DNA of 64,000 nucleotides from Halorarum salinum (GTDB taxonomy: Archaea; Halobacteriota; Halobacteria; Halobacteriales; Haloferacaceae): the NCBI RefSeq assembly GCF_013402875.1, contig NZ_CP058579.1, forward strand, positions 2,356,001 to 2,420,000, written 5' to 3'. The notes below the pieces were generated by a model that saw only the letters and a program-made list of their open reading frames with translations, was not told the DNA's origin and did not search any database. Position 1 is the first letter of the stretch, and each line of letters opens with the position of its first letter. Of the stretch, positions 2,231 to 47,554 are shown one piece after another. A program made the position numbers and the translations under genes.

Positions 2231-2365
2231 ATGAGAACACACCAGCTCCCCACGAGACCCGCGGACGACCCACGACTGATCGGCGCGCTGTTCGTGCTCT
2301 CGATCTTCGGCTCCCGGACGGGGACGGCGTCCGCGGCCGGTTGCGGGGCGTATCACGGTCCCTGA
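2231..2365 (+). CDS. 44-residue hydrophobic small protein
   Basis: This short ORF encodes 44 residues: a polar N-terminus with PADDPRLIG, a hydrophobic core (LIGALFVLSIFG), then a small-residue segment ending in CGAYHGP. The pattern, D/N-P-R-L-x-G-x-L-F-x-L with a Gly-Pro end, resembles tiny haloarchaeal proteins that carry only DUF labels (DUF7503-like as I recall, not verified). The single hydrophobic stretch could be a short membrane anchor or an export signal. It converges on the CHAT protease gene and their ends overlap by 13 bases. No good TATA box lies at leaderless distance, so expression is uncertain. Confidence 0.5.
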   Translation: MRTHQLPTRPADDPRLIGALFVLSIFGSRTGTASAAGCGAYHGP

Positions 2366-4437
2366 GCGTCGAGCCGGTCGGGGACGCCCTCCACCACCAG
2401 CTCCCCGTCGATCACGGCGGGGCTCGTGAACCGCTCGAAGAACCGGACTGCCTCCTCGGCGTCGAGCCGGAAGGGGCCGGACGACCCCGGCGCGAGCGAG
2501 TGGCGGTCGTTCGAGGGGACGAGCGGGTACGCGGCCGTCCCCATCCCTCCCTCCGACGGGAGGAACGTGTGGGCCGTCAGTTCCACGGTCCCATCGCCGA
2601 GCGGCTCCACCTCGCAGGCCATCGGGGCGCCGTTCTCGCTCTGGGCGACGTCGACGGTCCCGTCCCCGACGACGAGGTAGTAGCCGCCGAGGACGTGGCC
2701 GACGCGGGCGAGCGAGAGCGCCGCCCGGAGCGGGAACCCGCGGTTCAACAGCCCCGCCATCGCCCGGCCGACGTCGACCGCGCCGTCGTTTATCACGTCG
2801 CTCAGCGTGACGACTCCGCCGAGGGCGCCCCGTTCGACGAGCGCCACCCCCTGTTCGTACGAGCGGCAGCCGTTGAGGAGGAACGCGTCGACGCCCACGT
2901 CGTCGATGCTCCCGGCGTCGAGGGTCCCGTCCGGGCACCGGAACCCGCCCGGGTCGACGTGGCCGACGTAGTGGAGGTAGTCGGTCCCCGCCTCGAGGGT
3001 CCGACGGAGTTCGACCGTCGAGAGTCCCGTCTCGATGGAGACGGACGAGGGGAGCCACTCCCAGTCGCGGTAGACGTCCGCGGCCGCCCTCGACTCCTCG
3101 TCCATCCCGGCGCCGTTCACCACGACGGTGATGTCGATCGGCCCCCCGTCCGGCTCCCTGCCGAGCGCGTTCCGGTACGACGCGGGGACCCCCTTGCTCG
3201 CGTTCCACGGCGTCCCGGGGCCGAACCACACCTGCTCGACCGCGTCGGACTCCGGGAGCGCGACGACCGGTTCGGCGGGCGCGTCCACGGCGCTCGACCG
3301 CCGGACGAACGGGCGGCTCCCCCCGTCCGCGAGGTACTCGGAGACCACCCGCCCCCGGAGCCCCGACGCGGGGACGCGCTCCGGCGTCCTGACCCGGACC
3401 GCGGCGAGTTCGTCGAGGACGAACGGGAGCGTCTCGACGCCAGCGGGGTCCGGCGGGAAGCACGCGACGAGACGCCACCTCGGGAGCCGTTCGGCGACCT
3501 CCCCGTGTTCGACGTCGAGGTACGCCGGGAGCCGTTCGGCGAGCGGTTCGTCGTACAGCCGTTCGAACTCGGGGCCGACGACCGACTCGACGGCCGCTCG
3601 CTCGTGGAGGTCGACGCCGGCGTACCCCTCGCCCCGGAGCAGGCAGTCGAGGAAGAACGTCCGTTCGAGGACGCGCCGAACCGTCGACTCGAGCCCGCCC
3701 TCCGCGGTCAGGTCGAACTCGACGCCCGCGTCGGTGACCAGGCGGGGCTGCTCGCCGTCGACGACGTCCGCGCCGAGGTAGTAGGCGAGCGGAGCGGCCG
3801 TGAACAGCGCCTCGAGCGTCGGCGGGAGCTCCAGACGGACGCCCGTCTCCGGACGGGCGATCCCGTCGGGGATCGAGAGCGACTCCCCGAGTTCGATCAG
3901 GGGCGGGTGGCCCCTGAGGGTGGGATAGGACCGCTCGGGGCCAGTCGTCTTCAGCGCGGACGAGAGCGCGGAGACGGCGGCCCGGAGGTCGTCCGGGTCC
4001 GTCGTCGTCGTGATCGTCCCCGAGGGGCGGTCGTGGTAGGACCGGGCGCCGACGACGACGTCGGTCGCCTCCGGGAACCCGATCCGGACCCCGTCCGGCC
4101 CGGCGACGAGTTCGAGCGCGGACTCGGCGGTGAGATACACCTTGATCGGCGCGGTGACCTCGACGACGTACTCGGCCTCCGGGAGCGTCCGCACCGGCGC
4201 GGAGTTGGCGTCCACGACCACCTCGCCGTCCGCGTCCCGCACGAGTAGGTCGACGAGTCGGGAGAGCACCAGCTCGCGAACGGTGACGAGCGCGGCGGCC
4301 CCGACCGGCACGCGGAGCCCCGCGGGGTCGACGTCGGCCGGACGGACCGCGCGGTCGGTTCCCAGGCTCACCCGCCGGCGCTCGATCGGATCCCGGATCT
4401 CGATCCCCCCTTCCTCCCCCTCGATCGTCGGGTCCAT
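2353..4437 (-). CDS. CHAT-domain (caspase-like) protease
   Basis: This 694-residue protein has a large N-terminal region (about 1-420) with no recognised motif and a C-terminal CHAT peptidase domain (about 430-640). The catalytic His/Cys pair is visible: DYLHYVGH with His489 and His493, and LLNGCRSYEQG with Cys524, each at the end of a hydrophobic beta strand as in caspase-fold enzymes. CHAT proteases in other organisms cut specific partner proteins, sometimes in immune or cell-death systems. No TPR repeats, signal peptide or clear membrane segment are seen. It lies 90 bases downstream of the SprT gene but has its own TATA box and an inverted repeat. The substrate is unknown. Confidence 0.85.
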   Translation of the reverse strand: MDPTIEGEEGGIEIRDPIERRRVSLGTDRAVRPADVDPAGLRVPVGAAALVTVRELVLSRLVDLLVRDADGEVVVDANSAPVRTLPEAEYVVEVTAPIKVYLTAESALELVAGPDGVRIGFPEATDVVVGARSYHDRPSGTITTTTDPDDLRAAVSALSSALKTTGPERSYPTLRGHPPLIELGESLSIPDGIARPETGVRLELPPTLEALFTAAPLAYYLGADVVDGEQPRLVTDAGVEFDLTAEGGLESTVRRVLERTFFLDCLLRGEGYAGVDLHERAAVESVVGPEFERLYDEPLAERLPAYLDVEHGEVAERLPRWRLVACFPPDPAGVETLPFVLDELAAVRVRTPERVPASGLRGRVVSEYLADGGSRPFVRRSSAVDAPAEPVVALPESDAVEQVWFGPGTPWNASKGVPASYRNALGREPDGGPIDITVVVNGAGMDEESRAAADVYRDWEWLPSSVSIETGLSTVELRRTLEAGTDYLHYVGHVDPGGFRCPDGTLDAGSIDDVGVDAFLLNGCRSYEQGVALVERGALGGVVTLSDVINDGAVDVGRAMAGLLNRGFPLRAALSLARVGHVLGGYYLVVGDGTVDVAQSENGAPMACEVEPLGDGTVELTAHTFLPSEGGMGTAAYPLVPSNDRHSLAPGSSGPFRLDAEEAVRFFERFTSPAVIDGELVVEGVPDRLDAQGP

Positions 4438-4526: not shown

Positions 4527-5117
4527 TCACCCCGAGCGTGTGTCCTCCAGTTCGTAGTAGGCGCCACAGCACGCGGTCGACTCGACCCGACGGGCCTGCT
4601 CCGACGGCGGTAGCTCCGCCAGCCGCGTCGTCTCGCACTCCCGGCACCTGTCGAACAGCACGTCGCCGCAGTCGCGACACCGGAGGAGGTAGCGACCCCG
4701 GTGGAACGCAGGGCAGCGGTGGTCCGCGTCGACCGCCTCCGCGCGCTCCCGGAACCATGCGCCGTGGCCCGTCGTTCCGAACCGCTGGAACTGCTCGAGG
4801 TGGATCAGTTCGTGTCGGATCGTCCGGCGCCACTCGGCCTCGTCGTAGGCGTCCACCGCACGCCGGGAGCAGACCACCTCGCAGGCGTCGAGGTCGTCGA
4901 ACCGGGACCGGGAGAGCGCCGACCCGTGCTCCCGCCTCGCTGCGGTCCAGTCGAGCGGGACGCCGACCTCCGCGCCGGGGACCGTCGGGTGCCGCACGGC
5001 CGCCGCGCGGCGCTTCGCCCGGCGGGAGACGCGCCACTCGACGTTCCGGTCGAGGTTCGCGTCGAAGCCGAACTCGACGACGGCGACCCGGGCGTAGCGG
5101 CGGCTGTAGGCCAGCAC
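4527..5117 (-). CDS. SprT-like zinc metalloprotease
   Basis: This SprT/Spartan-type protein has the zinc-binding HELIHLEQ at residues 102-109 and a third His in GTTGHG near 118, followed by a Cys-rich zinc ribbon (CRDC at 147-150, CREC at 158-161, CC near 183). Bacterial and eukaryotic relatives include proteases that remove DNA-protein crosslinks; the archaeal role is inferred only from fold. The GTG at 5117 is the first possible start in frame, yet the frame stays open for another 21 codons upstream and reads like protein (VDIDFDAIRTDED). An ATG at 5176 would join it after a one-base shift, so the N-terminus is uncertain. Confidence 0.8.
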   Translation of the reverse strand: MLAYSRRYARVAVVEFGFDANLDRNVEWRVSRRAKRRAAAVRHPTVPGAEVGVPLDWTAARREHGSALSRSRFDDLDACEVVCSRRAVDAYDEAEWRRTIRHELIHLEQFQRFGTTGHGAWFRERAEAVDADHRCPAFHRGRYLLRCRDCGDVLFDRCRECETTRLAELPPSEQARRVESTACCGAYYELEDTRSG

Positions 5118-5243
5118 GTCCTCGTCCGTCCGGATGGCGTCGAAGTCGATGTCGACCGTGACGGCGGGGAAACCATCGTTCTATCGGTACGAAGGACCCG
5201 ACGGCGAACGGCCGACCCGTCCACGGCGGTAGGCACCAGCGCA

Positions 5244-5484
5244 CCCACCGCGAGGGTGGGAGGCGGGGCGAAGCCCCGCCGACCGAGCGAGCGGCCTTTT
5301 GGCACTGACGAGCGGAGCTCGTCATGTGGCCAGAAACCGTCGGTTTCCGGCAGCATTACGGGAAATCGAAGGTCTCCCGTCAGCAGTGGGATTCCGGAGG
5401 AATCCCCCAACAGGAACGGGTTTTGCGGGGGTCCGGCCGCAGCGCGTCGGCGGAGCCGACGCGCGAGGACGCGCCCCCGCAAAA
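5244..5484. other. Cluster of perfect stem-loops, several with C(GNA)G triloops
   Basis: At least six stem-loops lie in 240 bases of intergenic DNA. CCCACC/GGTGGG spans 5244-5260. GGCGGGGC-GAA-GCCCCGCC spans 5262-5280. TGACGAGC-GGA-GCTCGTCA spans 5306-5324. GAAACC-GTC-GGTTTC spans 5333-5347. ACGGGA/TCCCGT spans 5358-5380. GGGATTCC-GGA-GGAATCCC spans 5388-5406. Last comes a nested structure: a 10-bp stem with loop GGA (5442-5464) inside an 11-bp stem pairing TTTTGCGGGGG (5421-5431) with its complement (5474-5484). The final structure begins 7 bases after the arginase stop and may serve as its terminator; the rest is unexplained. Confidence 0.75.
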
Positions 5485-5490
5485 GGGGTT

Positions 5491-6396
5491 CTATAGGATC
5501 CGCTTCCCGAACGCGCTCGCGGCCAGTTCGGTCGCCAGTTCCGCGGTCTCGTTGTGCTCGTCGAGCACCGGGTTCACCTCGACGACCTCCATCGATCGGA
5601 GGACGTCCGACTCCGCGACCCGCTCCATCGCGTAGTGGGCCTCGCGGTAGGTGACGCCGCCGCGCACGGGGGTCCCGACGCCCGGCGCGATTCCGGGGTC
5701 GAGCCAGTCGAGGTCGAGGCTCACGTGGACGCCGTCGACGCCGTCGCCGGCCACCGTGATGGCCGCCTCCACCACGTCGGTGATGCCGCGCTCGTCGATG
5801 TCCGACATCGTGTAGGCCGTCATCTCGCTGCCGCGGATCGCCGCCCGTTCGGTGTCGTCGAGCGCCCGGAGGCCGACGTAGACGACGTTCTCCTCGCGCA
5901 GCCGCGGGGCGTTCGCCCACTCGACGCCCGCCCACTCAGCGTGGCCGAGCGCCGCGGCGAGCGGCATCCCGTGGACGTTGCCCGAGGGCGAGGTGGTCGG
6001 CGTGTTGTAGTCGCCGTGGGCGTCGAACCAGACGGCGCCGACGTCGGCGTCCCTCGCGCTCCCGCGGAGGCTTCCGATGGCGACCGAGTGGTCGCCGCCG
6101 AGCACGAGCGGGGTCGCGCCGTCCGCGACGGTGTCTGCCACCGCGTCGGCGAGTCGATCGCTCACGTCCTCCGTCTCGCGGAGGAACTTCGCGTTCCCCT
6201 CGCTCGGCGTCCGGTAGTCGGGGTCGCGCTCCTCCGCGCGCGGGACGGGCAGGTCGCCGGCGTCCTCGACCTCCACGCCGGCGGCCGCCAGTTCGCGCGC
6301 CAGCCCCGCGTACCTGATGGCCGAGGGGCCCATGTCGACGCCGCGCCGGTCCTGGCCGTAGTCCGTCGGCACGCCGATGATGTGGACGGCGGTCAT
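5491..6396 (-). CDS. rocF: Arginase
   Basis: Arginase (ureohydrolase family) splits arginine into ornithine and urea using two manganese ions in the cytoplasm. All metal ligands are seen: His103 in GGDHS, Asp125, His127 and Asp129 in DAHGDYN, and Asp228 and Asp230 in SLDLDWLDP. The stretch NTPTTSPSGNVHGMP (131-145) and the C-terminal EVNPVLDEHNETAELA are characteristic of arginase rather than agmatinase. The length of 301 residues is normal. A TATA-like ACTTTACCC (minus strand, 6430-6422) lies about 30 bases before the ATG. It is transcribed alone and ends at the hairpin cluster. Confidence 0.9.
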   Translation of the reverse strand: MTAVHIIGVPTDYGQDRRGVDMGPSAIRYAGLARELAAAGVEVEDAGDLPVPRAEERDPDYRTPSEGNAKFLRETEDVSDRLADAVADTVADGATPLVLGGDHSVAIGSLRGSARDADVGAVWFDAHGDYNTPTTSPSGNVHGMPLAAALGHAEWAGVEWANAPRLREENVVYVGLRALDDTERAAIRGSEMTAYTMSDIDERGITDVVEAAITVAGDGVDGVHVSLDLDWLDPGIAPGVGTPVRGGVTYREAHYAMERVAESDVLRSMEVVEVNPVLDEHNETAELATELAASAFGKRIL

Positions 6397-6525: not shown

Positions 6526-8250
6526 GTGCGCCACACACGGAGAGCGGTAGTCGCGAGCGCGTTCGGGCTGTTGAGCGGCTGTGCCGTCTCGGGGGGCTTC
6601 GGCGCGACGTCCCCGACGGGGACCCGAACCGGCACGTCGGGGACCGGGCCGACCGAGCCGACCCCGTCCCCCACCCCCGGACCGGTCGACTCCGGGCGAA
6701 CGATCCCGCCGGTCTCCCACCCGGGGACCCGGGCCCCGCCGCTCCCGGCCGGCCCCCTCCCGGGCGTGGAGAACCCCGTCCTGACCCCGGACGACGTCAC
6801 GGACTTCGGCGACGTCACGCTCGTCGCCGACCCCTTCCTGTTCGTCGAGGACGGGGAGTGGCACCTCTTCTTCGAGGTGTACAACGAGGACCGCGATCCC
6901 GACGCGGTCATCGGACACGCGCGCAGTTCCGAGGGGCGCGACTGGGAGTACACGGGCGTGGTGCTCGAGAAGGACGCCCACACGTCGTTCCCGCTCGTCT
7001 GGAAGTGGGAAGGGGAGTACTACATGTGCCCACCCACGGGCCGGAACGTCGAACTCTGGCGAGCGCGGTCGTTCCCCGACGACTGGGAACTCCTCGGGAA
7101 CCTCCTCGAGGCCGAGTACTACCCGCACGACCCGGTCATCTTCCGCTACGAGGGACGATGGTGGCTGTTCACCGACCGGGGAAACGACGCCGTGATGGCC
7201 TTCCACAGCGAGGACCTGGAGTCCACGGGCTGGAAACCACACGCGGGGAACCCCGTAGTGACCGACCGGCTGAAGGGGGCGCGACACGCCGGACGGCCCG
7301 TCGTCGTCGGCGATCGGCCCTACCTCTTCCGCATGGACCTGCGTGACGAGTACGGGGACAAGGTCCGGGGCTACGAGGTCACGGAGCTCACGACGACGAC
7401 GTACGCCGACCGCGAACTCCCCGAGTCGCCCGTCCTCTCCGAGAGCGGCGTCGGCTGGAACGCGGAGGCCATGCACCACTTCGACCACTGGTGGGACGGC
7501 GACGGCTGGCTCTGTGCGGTCGACGGCGAACGCGGCGGGTCGCCGGAGGGGCGGTACGCCATCGGCCTCTACTACGTGCCGGCGGACGCGTCGCCGCGGC
7601 AGTCCAGCCTCCCCGCCGACCGCTCGCGGACGGCCGCCTACTACACGTTCGACGGGCACGATGGAGTCGCCGTCGACCAGCGGGGGAACCGGCGCCCGGG
7701 CGTCGTCTTCGACGCGGAGGCGGGGTCGGTCGACGGGGTTCCCGGCCGGACGTTCGCCGAGGGGACGAGCAGGGTCGTGTTCCCGTACACGTACGTGTCG
7801 ACGCTGGACGGCGACGCGTTCTCGCTCGTGACGTACGTACGACCCGCGGTCCGTAGCCGGAAACGGACGCTCCTCGAGTACGGGAAGCACGACGGCGAGA
7901 CCAACCTCCGGGTCGAACGGAACGGGAACGCGTCGTGGACGGTTACGGCAGCGGGTCGGGACGACGACGTCTCGTTCACCGCCGAGGGAGGTCCCGACGA
8001 CGCGACGCTGGTGCAGGTGGCGCTGACGTACGTCAGGGGGAGCGGGTTCGGCTTCCACACGAACGGGGTCGAACGTGGCCGGGGAGGCGACCCCGGTTCG
8101 GTCGTCGAGTACAACGACTACCTCGTCCTCGGCGCCGACCGGCGGGGCGAGTCGCCGTGGACCGGGTGGATCGGCCCGTTCGGCGTCCACGACGCCGCGC
8201 TGACGGGGCCGGAACTCGACGCGATGGACGCGGAACTCCGGGCCGGCTAG
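6526..8250 (+). CDS. Secreted lipoprotein with GH43-like beta-propeller and LamG domain
   Basis: This 574-residue protein starts at a GTG. Its N-terminus has twin arginines (R5 R6) and a lipobox ending at Cys19 (LLSGC), so it is probably exported by Tat and lipid-anchored outside the cell. A Thr/Pro/Gly linker (about 25-70) leads to a five-bladed-propeller-like domain (about 75-350) with repeats such as VADPFLFVEDGEWHLFFEVYN and HDPVIFRYEGRWWLFT, the signature of the family that includes the glucosamine inositolphosphorylceramide transferase N-terminal domain and GH43-like enzymes. Residues about 365-570 look like a LamG/concanavalin fold. It may bind or trim a surface glycan; the substrate is unknown. 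Confidence 0.75.
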   Translation: MRHTRRAVVASAFGLLSGCAVSGGFGATSPTGTRTGTSGTGPTEPTPSPTPGPVDSGRTIPPVSHPGTRAPPLPAGPLPGVENPVLTPDDVTDFGDVTLVADPFLFVEDGEWHLFFEVYNEDRDPDAVIGHARSSEGRDWEYTGVVLEKDAHTSFPLVWKWEGEYYMCPPTGRNVELWRARSFPDDWELLGNLLEAEYYPHDPVIFRYEGRWWLFTDRGNDAVMAFHSEDLESTGWKPHAGNPVVTDRLKGARHAGRPVVVGDRPYLFRMDLRDEYGDKVRGYEVTELTTTTYADRELPESPVLSESGVGWNAEAMHHFDHWWDGDGWLCAVDGERGGSPEGRYAIGLYYVPADASPRQSSLPADRSRTAAYYTFDGHDGVAVDQRGNRRPGVVFDAEAGSVDGVPGRTFAEGTSRVVFPYTYVSTLDGDAFSLVTYVRPAVRSRKRTLLEYGKHDGETNLRVERNGNASWTVTAAGRDDDVSFTAEGGPDDATLVQVALTYVRGSGFGFHTNGVERGRGGDPGSVVEYNDYLVLGADRRGESPWTGWIGPFGVHDAALTGPELDAMDAELRAG

Positions 8251-46781: not shown

Positions 46782-47554
46782 CGTCGGACGCGGGCCGGGA
46801 GGAGGCCGCCCCGGCGGTCGAGTTCGACGGCGTCTCGAAGGTGTACGATCCCGAGGGCGAGGCGCTTCGGGCCCTCGACGGCGTGGAGTTCGCGGTCGAC
46901 CGCGGCGAGTTCGTCTGCATCGTCGGGCCGTCAGGTTGTGGCAAGAGCACCCTGTTCCGCATCGTCGCCGGCCTCGAGAACGCGACGTCGGGCGAGGTGA
47001 CCGTGGACGGGCGGCCGGTCGAGGGGCCCGGCCCCGACCGCGGGATGGTGTTCCAGGACGACGCGCTGTTCCCCTGGCGGACGGTCCTCGGGAACGTCAC
47101 CTACGGACTCGAGGAGGTGGGGACACCCGGTGACGACACCGTCGAGGGGCGCGCCCGTCACTGTCTGGACCTCGTCGGCCTCTCGGAGTTCGCGGACGCC
47201 TATCCGAAGAGTCTCTCGGGCGGTCAGCGCCAGCGCGTCGGCATCGCCCGCGCGCTCGCGGTCGACCCGCCGATCCTGCTCATGGACGAACCGTTCGCCA
47301 GCGTCGACGAGCGAACCAAGGCGACGCTCCACGCCGAACTGCTCGACATCTGGGAGGGAACCGAGAAGACCGTCCTCTTCGTCACCCACGACGTGGAGGA
47401 GGCCGTCTACCTCGCCGACCGCATCGTGGTGCTCACCGACCGCCCCGGATCGGTCGCGGAGCTCGTTCCGGTCGACCGGCCGCGGCCGCGCGACCGGACC
47501 GGCGAGGCGTTCACCGCGGTCGAGGATCGGGTGCTTTCGCACTTCCGCGACTGA
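46772..47554 (+). CDS. SsuB/TauB-type ABC importer ATPase
   Basis: This 260-residue ATPase drives the importer. It has Walker A GPSGCGKST, the Q loop MVFQDDALFPWRTV, signature LSGGQRQRVGIARAL, Walker B ILLMDEPFAS and switch FVTHDVEEA, all typical of the nitrate/sulfonate class. It overlaps the permease gene by ten bases and ends the three-gene operon; the aminotransferase gene follows 52 bases later. Confidence 0.9.
   Translation: MALTSDAGREEAAPAVEFDGVSKVYDPEGEALRALDGVEFAVDRGEFVCIVGPSGCGKSTLFRIVAGLENATSGEVTVDGRPVEGPGPDRGMVFQDDALFPWRTVLGNVTYGLEEVGTPGDDTVEGRARHCLDLVGLSEFADAYPKSLSGGQRQRVGIARALAVDPPILLMDEPFASVDERTKATLHAELLDIWEGTEKTVLFVTHDVEEAVYLADRIVVLTDRPGSVAELVPVDRPRPRDRTGEAFTAVEDRVLSHFRD

Follow-up and report, generated by a model that had tools for sequence, protein, structure and literature searches.

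The definition of transcript 3′ ends in archaea is still debated, with U-tracts and the factor aCPSF1/FttA as known components. In Haloferax, a T stretch is reported to give 95% termination and a single hairpin 59% (PMC7237163), and in Methanococcus aCPSF1 is reported to bind U4 tracts (PMC8716108). The element described here resembles such archaeal U-tract terminators (the T5C type of Haloferax and those dependent on aCPSF1/FttA) in carrying a U-tract soon after the stop codon, in gene sense, at many unrelated genes (PMC7237163, PMC8716108). It also resembles bacterial hairpin-cluster and Rho-independent terminators, in which hairpins are clustered just past stop codons (PMC8355165); haloarchaeal PATEs, MITEs and small mobile repeats, which are short, non-coding and dispersed, with near-end palindromes and a variable core (PMC3119063); and bacterial REP/BIME elements, i.e. 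dispersed extragenic palindromes at gene ends in modular arrays (PMC2817692, PMC3733652). Within the literature searched, no conserved structured archaeal 3′ element was found. Nor was a description of the present element, in a search that included few subscription papers, and it may be described elsewhere.

The window, i.e. the whole 64,000-nucleotide stretch of the Halorarum salinum genome that was analysed, contains an arginase-family gene and a SprT-like gene, both on the minus strand, separated by the element (Table 1). The first-pass annotation had marked a cluster of hairpins at 5244–5484. These hairpins are real, and they form only part of a larger element spanning ca. 5233–5491 on the minus strand, which exceeds the 240 bases noted before. 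Four hairpins with perfect stems were recovered where they had been placed, i.e. 5262–5280 (8 bp, loop GAA), 5306–5324 (8 bp, GGA), 5388–5406 (8 bp, GGA) and 5442–5464 (10 bp, GGA), as was the 11-bp outer stem formed by TTTTGCGGGGG and CCCCCGCAAAA (5421–5431 with 5474–5484). On folding, the outer stem was longer than 11 bp, with GAAC/GTTC pairing beyond a 3x3 internal loop (5414–5491), and the structure thus reaches into the arginase stop codon by its final base. The element starts in this base, and its minus-strand sequence opens with GAACCCCTTTTGCGGGGG. The C(GNA)G rule proposed for the triloops did not survive the comparison of copies: on the gene (minus) strand the loops read TNC, not GNA, and in other copies they vary or are reversed, so that the rule does not characterise the family.

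Table 1. Window coordinates of the element and its flanking genes.
Feature	Coordinates	Strand	Basis and remarks
Arginase-family gene	5491–6396	−	Pfam PF00491, E-value 2e-79; ORF and sequence
Arginase stop codon TAG	5491–5493	−	One-base overlap with the element
Hairpin A	5414–5491	−	GAAC, CCC internal loop, TTTTGCGGGGG stem, inner perfect hairpin, CCCCCGCAAAA, CCC, GTTC
U4 tract (TTTT on the minus strand)	5481–5484	−	Pairs with AAAA inside hairpin A
Perfect 10-bp hairpin inside hairpin A (type I interior)	5442–5464	−	
Module hairpin X, first two-hairpin unit	5388–5406	−	Unit grammar from other copies
Module hairpin Y, first two-hairpin unit	5358–5380	−	
Third inserted hairpin	5329–5351	−	Sequence, fold
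Fourth inserted hairpin	5306–5324	−	
Hairpin C	5248–5294	−	Perfect 5262–5280 hairpin at the tip
Variable 3′ tail of the element	5233–5247	−	Similarity between copies fades approximately here; far boundary approximate
SprT-like gene, next on the minus strand, outside the element	4527–5117	−	Pfam PF10263, E-value 2.7e-9

Segment 5244–5484 contains four perfect hairpins with stems of at least 8 bp, where 2000 dinucleotide shuffles averaged 0.027 and peaked at 1, which bears out the view that the cluster exceeds chance. No other 240-base stretch of the window contained more than two such hairpins, of which there were 31 in the whole window. RNA folding of 5244–5484 gave z-scores of −6.3 (plus strand) and −6.9 (minus strand), and the minus strand of 5224–5491 folded at −155.1 kcal/mol (z −7.5). 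Elsewhere in the neighbourhood, a 694-aa protein without a Pfam match is encoded at 2353–4437 (minus strand), parts of which (HYVGH, LNGC) we take to recall CHAT-type peptidases, and a putative lipoprotein-like protein with GINT1_N and Laminin_G_3 domains at 6526–8250 (plus strand).

Read on the gene strand, copies of the element begin with a short outer helix containing a pyrimidine internal loop or mismatch, continue with a U-tract paired to an A-tract, the two enclosing a GC-rich, variable hairpin, and proceed through a conserved linker to a second hairpin. Between hairpins A and C there are zero, two, four or more further hairpins, and in short copies hairpin A is joined straight to hairpin C. 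Hairpin A is supported by the fold, by matches of two covariance models (R1 and R2) to 5405–5491, and by compensatory changes across the family. In an alignment of 22 diverse copies (A4), both sides had changed in 7 of 15 pairs, and the covariation score was reached by none of 500 shuffles. In a larger alignment (A5, 98 distinct rows), which was aligned to the model in a manner favouring the model's structure and includes a few opposite-strand matches, the outer helix next to the stop codon was paired in 98.2% of cells; G-C was exchanged for C-G in 12 rows and A-U for G-C in 10, and the U-A pairs were retained in 89–94 of the 98 rows. By eye, copies of family f7 have a CAAC/GTTG outer helix, and in f17 copies the helix is CGAC/GTCG with a single C-C mismatch replacing the 3x3 loop. 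Conserved stems are thus present in relatives, as seen from compensatory changes across species and recurrence at the same genes, and on the basis of these alignments the structure is under selection.

The inserted hairpins come in variable number, as units of two hairpins whose linkers are fixed and whose mismatches are conserved. Among 30 distinct units, which are related by descent and do not count as independent events, one outer position was paired in all 30, the adjacent outer position was a pyrimidine-pyrimidine mismatch in 29, and at its base the second hairpin had A-G or G-A in 27; the search left all of these positions free and demanded an ATG following the linkers and a C inside them. 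The module stems vary widely between species. In the arginase copy, the linker preceding module hairpin X is degraded. Longer hairpin arrays with similar linkers and other stems were seen in one copy of the own genome (L030) and in the second copy of L096 in G002.

A BLAST-type search of the own genome identified the element as a dispersed repeat, in which some copies resemble the full element of the window and others fuse 5226–5304 to 5411–5491, without the middle. Covariance model R1, built on hairpin A, produced 44 matches in the genome, corresponding to 26 sites after merging the two strands of each palindrome; a weak 27th match inside coding sequence (window 47209–47290, plus strand) was judged to be chance and left out. 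At 24 of the 26 sites a stop codon on the same strand, as defined by the longest open frame, is overlapped by the element or lies at most 18 nt before its start, the exceptions being L020 and L100:1576. With codon-scored gene calls the number was 22 (binomial probability 3e-26), when a random intergenic point and strand in the window meets the stop-codon condition in 4.5% of cases. The L020 site, common to three congeners (L020, L094 and L114), lies away from a stop codon. In other genomes, 52 of 58 scored sites, at least one of them spurious, were at a same-strand stop by the open-frame criterion. The refuting condition named in the first-pass annotation, a lack of conserved stems in relatives, was not observed, given the compensatory changes and the recurrence at the same genes; the hairpin cluster is therefore part of a conserved structured element of dispersed occurrence.

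Carrier genes shared no evident pathway, which fits a general gene-end signal; they include arginase (Pfam) and the MenB and aCPSF1 genes (NCBIfam), and for the remainder we presume identities from reading their C-terminal sequences. The adjacent stop codon is TAA, TAG or TGA depending on the copy, and a readthrough or recoding signal was rejected on this ground. Convergent gene pairs may bear one facing element each (L016, L089), and hence the element serves one gene in one direction; the idea of a symmetric bidirectional terminator is weakened by the same facing pairs. Among 63 sites with a scored same-strand upstream gene and a scored downstream gene, 43 were followed by a convergent gene and 20 by a tandem one; the baseline for the genes of the window was 26 convergent and 32 tandem, and the convergent excess is only mild. 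Of the three options offered in the first-pass annotation (structured RNA, protein-binding array, mobile hairpin), a conserved, structured and dispersed element was upheld; a stand-alone non-coding RNA was left unsupported, since copies directly follow stop codons in gene orientation.

Sites and sequences follow different patterns. Matching by C-terminal peptides, not gene trees, pairs at least 17 of the 26 sites of the own genome with an element at the corresponding gene of a congener (G001 or G002); such shared-site counts are lower bounds, as 58 sites from the matches in other genomes were scored. Beyond these, in other genera, the MenB gene carries an element in G126 and G131, the AAA ATPase gene ending GGRIGFQ in G126, and the gene ending MDLVREFY in G020. 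Among copies of G000, G001 and G002, identity was 0.668 for orthologs (n = 34), 0.684 for paralogs within one genome (n = 264), and 0.665 for copies at different genes of different species (n = 522); orthologous copies were no closer than random ones, leaving no ortholog sequence signal. Numbers of inserted hairpins also differ, being four in G000 and two in G001 at arginase, whereas the gene ending TAPADD has none in G000 but four in G001. The syntenic arginase–SprT junction of G033 contains no element in its ca. 95 bases, and the arginase stop is without an element in G002, G126, G004 and G008, with one element further downstream of arginase in the opposite orientation in G126. Among eight relatives' arginase genes, one of which gave no clean 3′ end (G015) and one a wrong frame (G020), only that of G001 has an element at its own stop codon. 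Sites have thus in many cases been kept over speciation and in others been gained or lost, with sequence being exchanged between copies; we infer that copies exchange sequence by gene conversion and are homogenised within a genome while the sites stay.

Individual copies showed further irregularities. Two copies of the own genome, L015 and L018, have an inverted hairpin A interior of identical sequence, and this inverted version seems to have been copied between the sites. Five copies (L016, L018, L023, L028 and L103) have part of the GAACCTC start duplicated between the stop codon and the element, as if elements had been replaced or re-joined there.

Within the family, model R1 matched 29 of 148 genomes, in 9 of 28 genera; across the order, the broader model R2 matched 72 of 243 genomes, in 28 of 77 genera, at E ≤ 1e-4, a count that includes weaker matches, not all of them inspected. 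An exact 20-mer was present in 17 stretches, three bacterial ones of which were set aside as chance; carriers include Halolamina, Halobaculum, Candidatus Halobonum, Halorarius, Natronolimnohabitans and a Salinarchaeum MAG. Off the stop codons, short and nearly identical copies are repeated in f7, a family in which most copies are not at a stop, and in Halolamina salifodinae; some of these short copies are flanked on both sides by IS-like sequence. Copies beside or between the IS-end-like sequences TTGAAATCCTC and GGATTTCAACAG were seen at L140, L164, L177 and L134 (f7-type, Halolamina salifodinae), and in L131 (G020) an IS-like insertion breaks the element just past hairpin A. Because of these near-identical off-stop copies, some between IS-like sequence, capture by mobile elements probably moves the element between lineages. 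No element match was obtained in the phages, plasmids and viral contigs searched at the sensitivities used, and a virus or plasmid origin was discarded.

Deep recurrence, with its limits, is seen at a KaiC-like gene ending QANIF, which was followed by stop, short helix, U-tract, hairpin and A-tract in the own genus and in f17 (L205, L210), and by a looser form of this order in f6 and f12; these looser forms may be convergent. Of 30 KaiC-like loci, seven of which yielded no 3′ end and were left out of the comparison, two matched R2 at E ≤ 0.01 (L211 of the own genome, and L230), and nothing similar was found at several g11 and g14 loci. The aCPSF1/FttA gene itself ends with the element in several genera (L127, L118, L068, L071, L148, L256). 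In a separate set of 30 aCPSF1 loci only L256 (G040) matched, the copies of Halobaculum-like, Halolamina and Halobonum genomes having been found separately from that set. Autoregulation of aCPSF1/FttA through its own copy is possible.

Post-stop position, gene orientation, attachment to unrelated genes and the U-tract point to 3′-end definition, and the element probably has a gene-end function. Doubt had been raised over a terminator on account of the number and perfection of the hairpins; this was premature, as position, gene-sense orientation and U-tract suggest a 3′-end element. At arginase, the TTTT of the gene strand begins 7 nt past the stop codon, in agreement with the archaeal U-tract pattern of at least four T shortly past the stop. 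With moderate confidence, we favour a modular, copy-homogenised 3′-end element, with its U-tract in a stem just past the stop codon, probably acting in termination and/or 3′-end protection. As envisaged, the element would mark the 3′ end of its gene. RNA polymerase would reach the U-tract within ca. 20 nt of the stop codon and could terminate there intrinsically or via aCPSF1/FttA. Read-through transcripts would fold into hairpins that block 3′ exonucleases, and the hairpins might act as a second barrier to the polymerase. Unusually, the U-tract is part of the 5′ arm of the stem, and the polymerase meets the tract before the hairpin exists; complete termination at the tract would leave the hairpins untranscribed, and something else would have to explain why they are conserved. 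Further points against the termination reading are that the T4 tract is short and that a consensus terminator scan of 5000–5700 found none, and against a gene-end role that the L020 site and most f7-family copies lie off a stop codon and that most relatives end the same genes without the element.

Competing explanations account for parts of these data. Unselected GC-rich palindromic sequence is hardly credible and, on the conservation tests, refuted: short inverted repeats do abound in the GC-rich DNA of haloarchaea, as the 31 perfect hairpins of the window illustrate, but neither the density in the segment, nor the same genes carrying the element across species, nor the covariation unmatched by shuffles is expected of it. 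An element acting at the RNA level in the 3′-UTR, on mRNA stability, processing or small-RNA release and with no role in termination, would profit from the very stable fold, the conserved linkers and module mismatches, the variable hairpin number and the gene-sense orientation; however, an RNA-binding motif would hardly tolerate the inverted inner hairpins of L015 and L018 or the flipping of loops between copies, and we regard this account as rather improbable. No tRNA was found in the window, and no Rfam family matched it at gathering score, the best sub-threshold hits being eukaryotic microRNAs far below the cutoff; a known RNA family was thereby ruled out for the window.

Spread by transposition of a repeat that lacks its own transposase (MITE, PATE or small mobile repeat) and is tolerated at gene ends would account for dispersed similar copies with a variable core and hairpins near both ends, for gain and loss at orthologous sites (the arginase–SprT junction being empty in G033 and filled in G000 and G001), and for near-identical copies in different families, some between IS-like ends. 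We consider it unlikely, as nearly all own sites abut stop codons in one orientation, many are common to several species, and the helices keep compensatory changes. Moreover, aligning the own copies with their flanks, no MITE-type terminal inverted repeats or target duplications were recognised by eye, and the phage, plasmid and viral collections were without a match. The REP-associated Y1 transposase (PF01797) gave no match in the genome, when controls were positive in 5 of 14 genomes. In the test for a PATE/IS605 relationship, the own genome showed palindromes near both element ends, no Y1_Tnp and a single broken TnpB-type match that lies near none of the copies, and a REP/RAYT or IS605 origin is unsupported in this genome. 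In other genera, capture by MITEs is possible, because some copies there sit between IS-like ends.

Extending the favoured 3′-end element to the whole order is a more tentative step. The copies might represent an undescribed haloarchaeal gene-end class with a stop-anchored U-tract stem and add-on modules, a possible dedicated factor and concerted evolution. In such a class the module stems would be free to change while linkers and single mismatches are kept, with two pyrimidines opposed in one hairpin and A-G or G-A in its partner; the factor could be aCPSF1/FttA, so that a termination factor might regulate itself; and copies would stay at the same genes and swap sequence by concerted evolution. 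Natural variants with zero, two or four hairpins after the same gene could test whether structure beyond the U-tract matters in termination or mRNA lifetime, and the combination of site conservation with sequence turnover would amount to concerted evolution in the non-coding DNA of polyploid archaea.

Compared with the known systems, the element is longer than REP/BIME, has internal loops, and occurs in a genome without a Y1/RAYT transposase. It differs from PATEs and MITEs in being bound to stop codons in one orientation, in its cross-species sites and covarying stems, and in that no IS605-type partner was found. In Rho-independent terminators a GC-rich hairpin precedes a T-run on the gene strand, an order of which there was no instance at 5000–5700, whereas the element reads T-tract, hairpin, A-tract and has conserved linkers within a sequence family. 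Known archaeal terminators, finally, need no hairpin, whereas this element is a sequence family with extra hairpin modules, in which a large conserved stem holds the U-tract in its 5′ arm.
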